Shown here: positions 13,781 to 16,261 of the stretch, piece by piece
Numbering within the stretch: the stretch's first letter is position 1
Layout: the number at the start of each line of letters is the position of its first letter
The notes under the pieces: model-generated
Seen by the model: the letters and a program-made list of their open reading frames with translations, nothing else
Told to the model about the DNA's origin: nothing
Databases searched by the model: none
Position numbers and translations under genes: made by a program
Assembly (NCBI GenBank): GCA_023150415.1
Contig: JAKLKY010000006.1
Coordinates: 1 to 35,006 of the forward strand
DNA: 35,006 bases
Origin: Alphaproteobacteria bacterium
Lineage (GTDB): Bacteria; Pseudomonadota; Alphaproteobacteria; Micavibrionales; Micavibrionaceae
Direction of reading: 5' to 3'

Positions 13781-13835
13781 AGACAAGAGTTATAGCGGGC
13801 CGAGGCCAGCGAGTAAATGTTTGCCTTGAAAGCCC

Positions 13836-16043
13836 TTAAAATTCGGGGGTCAGGCCAGAACCGCCACCCCCGTATTTGGGTTTTTGGCCTTTGTCGGGCA
13901 GGGATTCATAACGCGCCATAACCCAATTCCAGCGCACGGGATCGGCAGTGGTCACTGTTCCATTGCGCCAACGATCAATCATGTTTGCAGTCAACCCCTC
14001 CGGCACGTCTTTAGCCTGGAGCAGGGTTTTGCTCCCCACGCCTGTGCGGCGCACATGATCTTCCAGTTGTTTCCGCATTGCGGGTGTAATGGTGATGGTG
14101 GGCGTTTCATCCGGCAGGGATTCATAACGCGCCATAACCCAATTCCAGTGCACGGGATCGGCTGTGGTCACTGTTCCATTGCGCCAACTATAAATCATGT
14201 GTACAGTCAACCCCTTCGGCACGTCTGGGACCTTGACCAGGGCTGTGCTCCCCACGCCTGTGCGGCGCGCATGATCTTCGAGTTGTTTTCGCATTGTGGG
14301 TGTAATGGTGATGGTGGGCGTTTCATCCGGCAGGGATTCATAACGCGCCATAACCCAATTCCAGTGCACGGGATCGGCAGTGGTCGATGTTCCATTGCGC
14401 CAGCTATCAATCATGCCTGCAGTCAACCCCTCCGGCGCGTCTGGGACCTTGACCAGGGCTTTGCTCCCCACGCCTGTGCGGCGCATATGGTCTTCCAGCT
14501 GCTTGCGCATCTCGGACGTAATCTCAATCATATGATCCCGCCGCAGGCGCATGCGTTCGTTGAGCAATTCGCGGATTTGCGCAGGCTCGGTGATTTCCTC
14601 GACCTCCTGCCCGTCGATAACCGTCGTACCACCCTTGGGGCACGGCGGTTCCAGGGTGTCCGGATCATCCTCGTCCCTGTATCCTTTGGGTTTGCCTTTG
14701 AGGACATACACATCATCAATGATGTCGGCGGCCAGAACGGCGCGGCGGAGGGCTTCGGCGCGCAGGCGTTCATCTTCTTCCGGATCGTCCGAGCCGACAT
14801 AAACAATGGTGTCGATGAAGGTCAGGCCTTCCCAGCGCTGCTTGACCGGATTCCACCATTTGCGCGCGCCGCGGCCCATGATCTGCGCCTTGTCGGGCAG
14901 GGATCCGTGCGGGCAATCGACAATGGTTTTCATCGGCGGATGATCGAAACCTTCCTTGAACTTCTCATCCCCCACCACGGCCATATATTTCCCGGCCTTG
15001 TAATCATTCATCCGCTGCTTTTGTTCTTTGCGCGGCATGTTGGAATGGATGGAAACGGCCACACCCTTGCAGCCCCGCGCAGCAGCCTTATGAGCCAGCA
15101 TGGTGTTGGCATTTAATTTTTGTGCAAGATCATCCGCCTGCGTCGTATCAAAGGTAAAGAACCCGGCCTGATTGTCCGAGAGCGGATCGCCGGTGCGGCG
15201 GTCGGTTCCTTCAGCGAACAAGACAACGGCGCGCTTGTTCCACGCGGCTTTGCGTAAAGCGAATTTATTGACGTCGTTGTTATTAGCCGCATCGGCAAAT
15301 TCGCCTTTTTTCTTTTTGGGCGGCGTAACCCGAATGATGCGGAGTTGGATTTGAATATATTCCGCCGATTCATCACCGCGCACGGCGTCGGACAAGGATT
15401 TGTAATAGATTTGACGCTCATGCGTTTGATGGACGGATTTTTCTACATCGAAACGCGCGGTGGCCGTGAAGGCAAGGCGCGCGGCGCGGGCGCAATTAAA
15501 CTCCTCGAATAAATCAACGCGCACATCGGACGTGCCGCGGTGGGCCTCGTCCGAGATCAGAATATCGGTGTTATCGGCGCTGATGATGCCCTTCTCTGTC
15601 AGGTCCGCCCATGCGTCATAGGTCATGATGGTGATGGGCTTTTTCAGGTTCTTGTGCCCATCGCCATAATGGCCGATGTGACCCGCATAAGATTTGGCAA
15701 ATTCCTGAATGGCTTCATCGGTTTGCTGCATGAGATCAATCGTCGGAACGACGATTTTTGTACTGAGCTCTACACCTTCTTTTTTCGCAGCATCATGCGC
15801 ACCGGCAATGATCGCGACAAAGACGGCGGTTTTACCGACGCCGGTGGGGATTTCAAAAAATCCTTTAAGTTTTTCTGCATCTGTCAGATCGCTGCGCTTT
15901 AAATATTTTGCGTAGGCTTCAAGCGCCTCGCGCTGCGTCGGGCGGAATTCTTTGCCATTCTCAAAGTGGCCACGCGACAACAGCGCCGCAACCGACGCCT
16001 GCAAATAGCGTAGAATATCTTTGGAACCTGCCTTTTTGGCCAT
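13836..16043 (-). CDS. SF2 DEAD/DEAH-box helicase with three tandem C-terminal HTH-like units
   Basis: The product is 735 residues from the ATG at 16043; a GTG at 16067 would add eight. Using the longer numbering, the helicase core has IPTGVGKT (73-80), a TYDAW segment, DEAH (173-176), TAT (201-203), and a second RecA domain ending in QIMGRGARKWW (395-405). This resembles the helicase halves of restriction and defence enzymes, but I see no nuclease or methylase domain. After an acidic linker, residues 514-725 hold three copies of a 72-residue unit, each running MRKQLEDH, RRTGVGS, GLT, MI, WRNGT, TTADPV, WNWVMARYESLPD. Each unit looks like a four-helix Cro/CI-type HTH. The gene stands alone between glmU and an unrelated operon. 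Possible roles are DNA repair, defence or a site-guided helicase; none is shown. Confidence 0.85.
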   Translation of the reverse strand: MAKKAGSKDILRYLQASVAALLSRGHFENGKEFRPTQREALEAYAKYLKRSDLTDAEKLKGFFEIPTGVGKTAVFVAIIAGAHDAAKKEGVELSTKIVVPTIDLMQQTDEAIQEFAKSYAGHIGHYGDGHKNLKKPITIMTYDAWADLTEKGIISADNTDILISDEAHRGTSDVRVDLFEEFNCARAARLAFTATARFDVEKSVHQTHERQIYYKSLSDAVRGDESAEYIQIQLRIIRVTPPKKKKGEFADAANNNDVNKFALRKAAWNKRAVVLFAEGTDRRTGDPLSDNQAGFFTFDTTQADDLAQKLNANTMLAHKAAARGCKGVAVSIHSNMPRKEQKQRMNDYKAGKYMAVVGDEKFKEGFDHPPMKTIVDCPHGSLPDKAQIMGRGARKWWNPVKQRWEGLTFIDTIVYVGSDDPEEDERLRAEALRRAVLAADIIDDVYVLKGKPKGYRDEDDPDTLEPPCPKGGTTVIDGQEVEEITEPAQIRELLNERMRLRRDHMIEITSEMRKQLEDHMRRTGVGSKALVKVPDAPEGLTAGMIDSWRNGTSTTADPVHWNWVMARYESLPDETPTITITPTMRKQLEDHARRTGVGSTALVKVPDVPKGLTVHMIYSWRNGTVTTADPVHWNWVMARYESLPDETPTITITPAMRKQLEDHVRRTGVGSKTLLQAKDVPEGLTANMIDRWRNGTVTTADPVRWNWVMARYESLPDKGQKPKYGGGGSGLTPEF
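13893..14528 (-). repeat. Three tandem 216-bp units inside the helicase gene
   Basis: Units at 14528-14313, 14312-14097 and 14096-13893 (last one truncated by four codons) encode the HTH-like repeats. Phrases such as ATAACGCGCCATAACCCAAT recur exactly every 216 bases. A hand alignment of the second and third units gives about 19 differences in 216 bases. They lie in the coding frame and have no spacer, so they are an internal protein duplication, not a CRISPR. Confidence 0.92.
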
Positions 16044-16049
16044 GAGGAT

Positions 16050-16077
16050 TTTTAATATAAGTGGCACAAAATGTCAA
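16050..16077 (-). promoter_or_regulatory. Candidate promoter for the helicase gene, possibly leaderless
   Basis: On the minus strand a perfect TTGACA (16077-16072) is followed 16 bases later by TTAAAA (16055-16050). Transcription would then start at about the ATG at 16043, giving a leaderless message; this fits the lack of a ribosome-binding site before either start codon. The -10 is poor. Confidence 0.32.
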
Positions 16078-16261
16078 CAAATATGTCTATATTAGATGCA
16101 ATTTAAAGTTGCGCTCTGGGCGGGGAATGATTATGATTCTCCTGGAATTCAGGTCCTTACGTCTAAAATACCTTCAATATCCCTCTAATTTCAGCATTAT
16201 TTAACGTATTGTATATTATAGTGCTAAAGGGACTTTTTTATCTTCGTGGGTGAGGTTACGT

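Follow-up and report, generated by a model that had tools for sequence, protein, structure and literature searches.

The repeat array in the window, this being the whole stretch of 35,006 nt of DNA that was analysed, is, judged from its sequence, the C-terminal end of an SF2 helicase of the ResIII/XPB-like branch. We give about an even chance to the reading that this protein is a DNA translocase of a mobile element, aimed by an exchangeable array of lambda-repressor-like helix-turn-helix (HTH) units. Three units of the Cro/C1 (XRE) type at the helicase C-terminus would hold the motor on particular DNA, each with its third helix placed in the major groove according to the predicted fold, and the number of units and the residues of the recognition helices would set which DNA is read. 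The motor would take part in the processing, replication, or transfer of an integrative mobilisable or conjugative element by unwinding or remodelling the element's DNA, and the copy in the window may be either captured cargo or all that is left of such an element. Features of the gene are listed in Table 1.

Table 1. Features of the helicase gene and its repeat array (window coordinates)
Feature	Position	Strand	Basis
Gene of the 743-aa SF2 helicase with HTH-like repeats at its C-terminus	13836..16067	-	ORF, Pfam, solved-structure relatives
Helicase domain 1 (ResIII match, aa 40-204)	15456..15950	-	Pfam
Helicase domain 2 (Helicase_C match, aa 335-402, under Pfam cut-off)	14862..15065	-	Pfam
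Unit 1 (aa 516-587)	14307..14522	-	Tandem Repeats Finder and coding-register alignment
Predicted recognition helix, unit 1 (aa 549-558)	14394..14423	-	AlphaFold2 model and VIA-align comparison
Unit 2 (aa 588-659)	14091..14306	-	Tandem Repeats Finder and coding-register alignment
Predicted recognition helix, unit 2 (aa 621-630)	14178..14207	-	AlphaFold2 model and VIA-align comparison
Unit 3 (aa 660-725, last residues of the period missing)	13893..14090	-	Tandem Repeats Finder and coding-register alignment
Predicted recognition helix, unit 3 (aa 693-702)	13962..13991	-	AlphaFold2 model and VIA-align comparison
C-terminal tail beyond the array, predicted disordered	13839..13880	-	AlphaFold2 model, pLDDT <50

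The window protein matched the Pfam families ResIII (8.6e-22) and DEAD (2.7e-13) above the cut-off and Helicase_C (6.5e-4) just below it. The words GVGKTA and DEAH were found as Walker A and DEAH motifs, so that motor domain, Walker A, DEAH, and second helicase domain of an SF2 helicase (ResIII/DEAD) are all present, and XPB/Rad25 helicases are the nearest solved proteins. The gene has a G+C content of 0.549 and GC3 of 0.622, in line with its neighbours. Inspection by eye of 29 loci of the family showed 22 with a gene of 300 aa on the 5' side of glmU, where the window has the helicase (13786-16250); one search of the window genome, run without a positive control, gave no match to that 300-aa gene. 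A 410-aa open frame (13884-15116, plus strand) is antisense to the repeats and helicase and is probably no more than a side effect of coding on the opposite strand.

The sole tandem array of the window was located by Tandem Repeats Finder at 13897-14510, with a period of 216 bp, 2.8 copies, 90% matches, and 0% indels. It codes for protein as part of the minus-strand helicase ORF, which confirms the nearly identical 216-bp coding repeats reported in the preliminary description; the words quoted there (VPDVPKG and AKDVPEG, MIYSW and MIDRW) are also present in the translation. Its count of about 19 differences in 216 bases between the second and third units was too low, as in the same register, with units ordered along the plus strand, these two differ at 27 of 204 bases, the first and second at 21 of 216, and the first and third at 30 of 204. 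In the coding register, the differences are 23/216 for units 1 and 2, and 38/216 for units 1 and 3 and 33/216 for units 2 and 3, the last two counts taking in the unrepeated C-terminal tail. The array is present once in the window genome and is internal to a 61-kb contig. Its longest exact repeat is 81 bp, which can be resolved by ordinary short reads, and collapse or expansion during assembly is therefore unlikely and was rejected as an explanation. Similar short C-terminal tails (GLTPEF, EDNLTP, NDLTM, and DELGM) end the proteins of the window, L045, L015, and L050, and are perhaps a common C-terminal peptide signal.

The array of three units was modelled in AlphaFold2 with an alignment of the units of the window, L048, and L050. 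The model has mean pLDDT of 86.9 and pTM of 0.47, meaning that confidence is high for single units but not for how they are placed relative to one another. Within each 72-aa unit, a strand is followed by a helix, a short helix, a loop, another helix, a second strand, and a final helix. When the model was compared in VIA-align, the rows were nearly all lambda-repressor-like HTH domains, the highest Z being 7.7 (with rmsd of 2.0 over 59 residues), among them the DNA-binding domain of ComR (Z 7.4, rmsd 2.2 over 59), P22 c2, 434, SinR, and POU-specific domains; according to the tool's own warning, Z below 8 may reflect a common arrangement. Foldseek of the array model gave nothing significant (best E 0.28), with chains of ComR, POU, Aca1, and a phage repressor among the rows. 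The units matched no HTH family in Pfam or NCBIfam at E up to 1; single units had no Pfam match at all, and the whole window protein had no Pfam match of HTH type at E up to 1. A homeodomain was the best solved-structure match of the unit profile and was rejected, as its E value was only 0.019. Based on the model, each unit is a probable, not a proven, Cro/C1-type (lambda-repressor-like) HTH. In predicted fold the units resemble ComR, P22 c2, and SinR, but those have a single domain in a regulator, whereas here the units are in tandem on a helicase and match no sequence family. Recognition helices were assigned using contact positions that we presume for such domains. The array of another type in L045 was modelled with pLDDT of 78.7; its best Foldseek E was 1.6, and VIA-align returned one row with Z 2.6.

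The top row in VIA-align (Z 7.7) is chain 7o81_AU from a stalled 80S ribosome, which we take to be EDF1. It would suit an RNA helicase with units that attach to the ribosome or to structured RNA in the manner of Cro/C1-type EDF1/MBF1, but the motor has its nearest kin among XPB/Rad25 and ResIII DNA enzymes, and genes for DNA transfer adjoin the helicase in relatives, so that we consider this reading very improbable.

Across codons 1-66 of the window's three units, 17 columns are nonsynonymous and nine synonymous only. Residues 20-46, which are predicted to form the second helix, a loop, the recognition helix, and another loop, hold 13 of the former and none of the latter, as compared to four and nine elsewhere (Fisher p 0.0005, the region having been chosen post hoc). 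The changes thus cluster in the part expected to contact a target, as had been proposed, if the predicted surface is right. Changes within residues 20-46, a region picked after the data had been seen, are exclusively nonsynonymous, but whole-unit pairs have dN/dS below 1 (dN 0.09-0.17, dS 0.17-0.37), and diversification is therefore indicated locally only.

Four positions (35, 36, 39, and 40), presumably those contacting bases in phage repressors and already seen to vary in the window, were then compared in other proteins. The sample was 11 arrays with 42 units of at least 50 aligned residues; four stretches that fell short of this length or matched weakly were excluded. The profile joining the units was built in several rounds under permissive limits from 11 proteins chosen by hand. 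These positions differ in 0.845 of within-array pairs versus 0.597 for all columns (p 0.0017), and in 0.855 versus 0.637 (p 0.008) if the window is excluded. For the four helicase arrays other than that of the window, the values are 0.918 versus 0.549 (p 0.0002), and for stand-alone arrays 0.812 versus 0.698 (p 0.16); the excess is clear in helicase arrays only. In the G103 array, the most varied stretch seen by eye precedes the word ILxG, where the recognition helix would lie.

These data bear on a simpler reading, in which the units are ordinary repeats made by unequal crossover and kept alike by gene conversion, with a non-specific grip on DNA and with differences due to relaxed drift. The whole-unit dN/dS, below 1 and not extreme, is in line with it, as are the stand-alone arrays without an excess at recognition positions. 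On the other hand, relaxed drift does not sit well with the concentration of nonsynonymous columns in residues 20-46, a region chosen post hoc, or with positions of this stretch ranking near the top in divergence in four independent helicase arrays, and we find the reading rather unlikely. We give a similarly low probability to a modular way of addressing DNA, by which each HTH unit of a mobile-element SF2 translocase would read a few bases, unit number and contact residues would be under diversifying selection, whole cassettes of unlike types would pass from one to another of otherwise similar helicases, and the motor would be re-aimed in evolution.

The window's genus is represented by one genome, and the nearest helicase is 55% identical to that of the window. 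Relatives, counted with profiles, have from one to 11 units per array. Units of the window type number three in the window, four in L048 and L099 each, eight in L050, and about five in genome G011, if the helicase end in L044 and the repeat gene at a contig end in L015 belong to one gene, as seems to be the case. In L046, one unit stands ahead of an early-ending helicase, while no clear repeat units were found in L047 by profile search. Arrays of other types have six units in L045, five in G103, and 11 in G008. A fixed number of three units in all relatives was thus not found. The idea that unit number and residues change over time is largely right and partly supported: neither is fixed among relatives, but these relatives are distant. 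The L048 motor shares 52% identity with the L045 motor and 56% with the partial sequence of G103, yet the arrays are unlike; from these sequences the C-terminal repeat tail seems to be exchangeable between helicases.

Presence of the helicase is patchy. It was found by profile in nine of 104 genomes of the family (at E 1e-20) and four of 385 genomes of the class, the window's own included in both; two of the class matches (G460 and G303) are distant and have other repeats. The repeat units were found with the first profile in five of the 104 family genomes, own included. Wider sampling found units in five of 385 class genomes and two of 398 phylum genomes, again with the own genome included; the phylum match G530 was dropped as one weak match of 32 positions. 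Loci L150, L151, and L152, from the small genomes G460 and G303 of the same class, encode distant helicases with yet other C-terminal repeats. Helicase alignment recovered 48 genome loci, of which seven (L044-L050) with at least 40% identity were analysed and 41 with 22-31% identity were left out. Named relatives are Micavibrio sp. UBA7657, Cerasicoccus frondis (Verrucomicrobiota; the four-unit array of L048), and a Bacteroidetes MAG with a 657-kb contig (the eight-unit array of L050). No locus was found on viral contigs by helicase alignment, the window protein as a single query had no match in genome and viral contigs, and the window array had none in plasmid or phage records; PHROGs yielded for it only brief stretches of weak similarity (best E 3.9e-4). 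The helicase tree, computed with ten rows and containing two long branches, joins phyla: Verrucomicrobiota and Micavibrio group together (89/88), and so do an alphaproteobacterium and Bacteroidota (100/100).

In L048, a serine recombinase, NikA/MobC, and relaxase are followed after 42 bp by the helicase on the same strand, and L050 has the same gene set. In L049, the helicase follows VirB8, VirB9, VirB10, VirB11, and VirD4. Close to the L046 helicase are a tyrosine integrase gene and tRNA-Val. A tRNA gene is 68 bp away in L044 and 273 bp away in L045. Neither a mobility gene nor an adjacent tRNA was identified in the available flanks of the window, L047, L099, and L100. As raw neighbour counts, from which the distant helicases of G039 and G101 are excluded, four of ten helicase loci have mobility genes, two a tRNA only, and four neither. 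Recombinase genes flank stand-alone repeat genes in six of seven loci (L092, L093, L095, L096, L097, and L098; raw count), with the neighbours of the seventh, L094, judged by eye only; three of these loci (L095, L096, and L098) have a tRNA gene that shares sequence with the serine recombinase gene. As relatives have relaxase, MobC/NikA-like, and serine recombinase genes next to them or follow a type IV secretion operon, the motor most likely acts on element DNA, and the arrangement in L048 suits a role in transfer. No recombinase, relaxase, or tRNA gene stands beside the window helicase. The profile of the L048 and L050 relaxases had no match in the window genome, while 26 of 103 searched genomes matched, mostly weakly; two serine recombinases of the window genome are both on other contigs.

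Several other features were observed at these loci. A second ResIII helicase of 1087 aa is encoded near the Cerasicoccus element (L048:11927-15187, minus strand). Charged proteins of 273-338 aa and without clear Pfam family are encoded beside stand-alone repeat genes (L092:6548-7459, L097:5751-6764, and L098:7002-7820). The helicase frame of G103 (L049:5861-7429) ends by an IS3-like transposase, and another G103 contig (L168) starts inside the helicase gene, with overlap.

The main rival to a mobile-element motor is a cargo role in defence or competition, in which the array would recognise foreign DNA of a phage or rival element, the motor would disrupt it, and variable units would track the targets. 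The patchy presence of the helicase and the solitary, cargo-like position of the window gene agree with this, and so do the hypervariability of the predicted reading positions and weak PADLOC matches, confined to the motor domain (PbeA, 4e-9). Those matches, however, span the common helicase core, and a known defence system was rejected for this reason. The window protein has no nuclease or other effector domain, no defence genes were seen by eye beside its gene, and the helicase of L048 directly behind a relaxase gene also speaks against such a role, which we hold to be improbable.

Returning to the mobile-element motor, TtrA-like helicases carry C-terminal HA repeats (PF03457). This domain was rejected as the identity of the units, as PF03457 had no match in the proteins of the window, L048, L050, L045, L100, and L168. 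By analogy, the closest known case is Streptomyces TtrA, described as a putative DEAD-box helicase required for conjugation of the linear plasmid SLP2 (PMC8743542). The likeness, compared by that description (PMC8743542), is a helicase tied to conjugative transfer; the window family differs in the absence of PF03457 and in its hosts. TraI and TrwC would be similar in the proposed role of a helicase working with a relaxase, but the helicase of the window family is a gene separate from the relaxase in L048 and L050 and belongs to the ResIII/XPB-like branch; no relaxase domain was found by Pfam in the window protein. TALE-like repeats have two helices and about 34 aa, whereas the window family has 72-aa units with predicted HTH fold of four helices and short strands, three to eight per array, and its units are thus not TALE-like repeats. 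What they have in common is near-identical units with differences at few positions of a predicted reading surface (PMC5472282).

No description of this helicase-array family was found in open-access literature, most subscription papers being outside the scope of the search. If the array reads DNA modularly, it would be a new natural scaffold in which sequence-specific DNA recognition is joined to a motor, and it would reveal a way in which mobile elements direct their processing enzymes to new targets. On a more modest reading, it is an unclassified repeat family linked to integrative elements whose helicases span three phyla.
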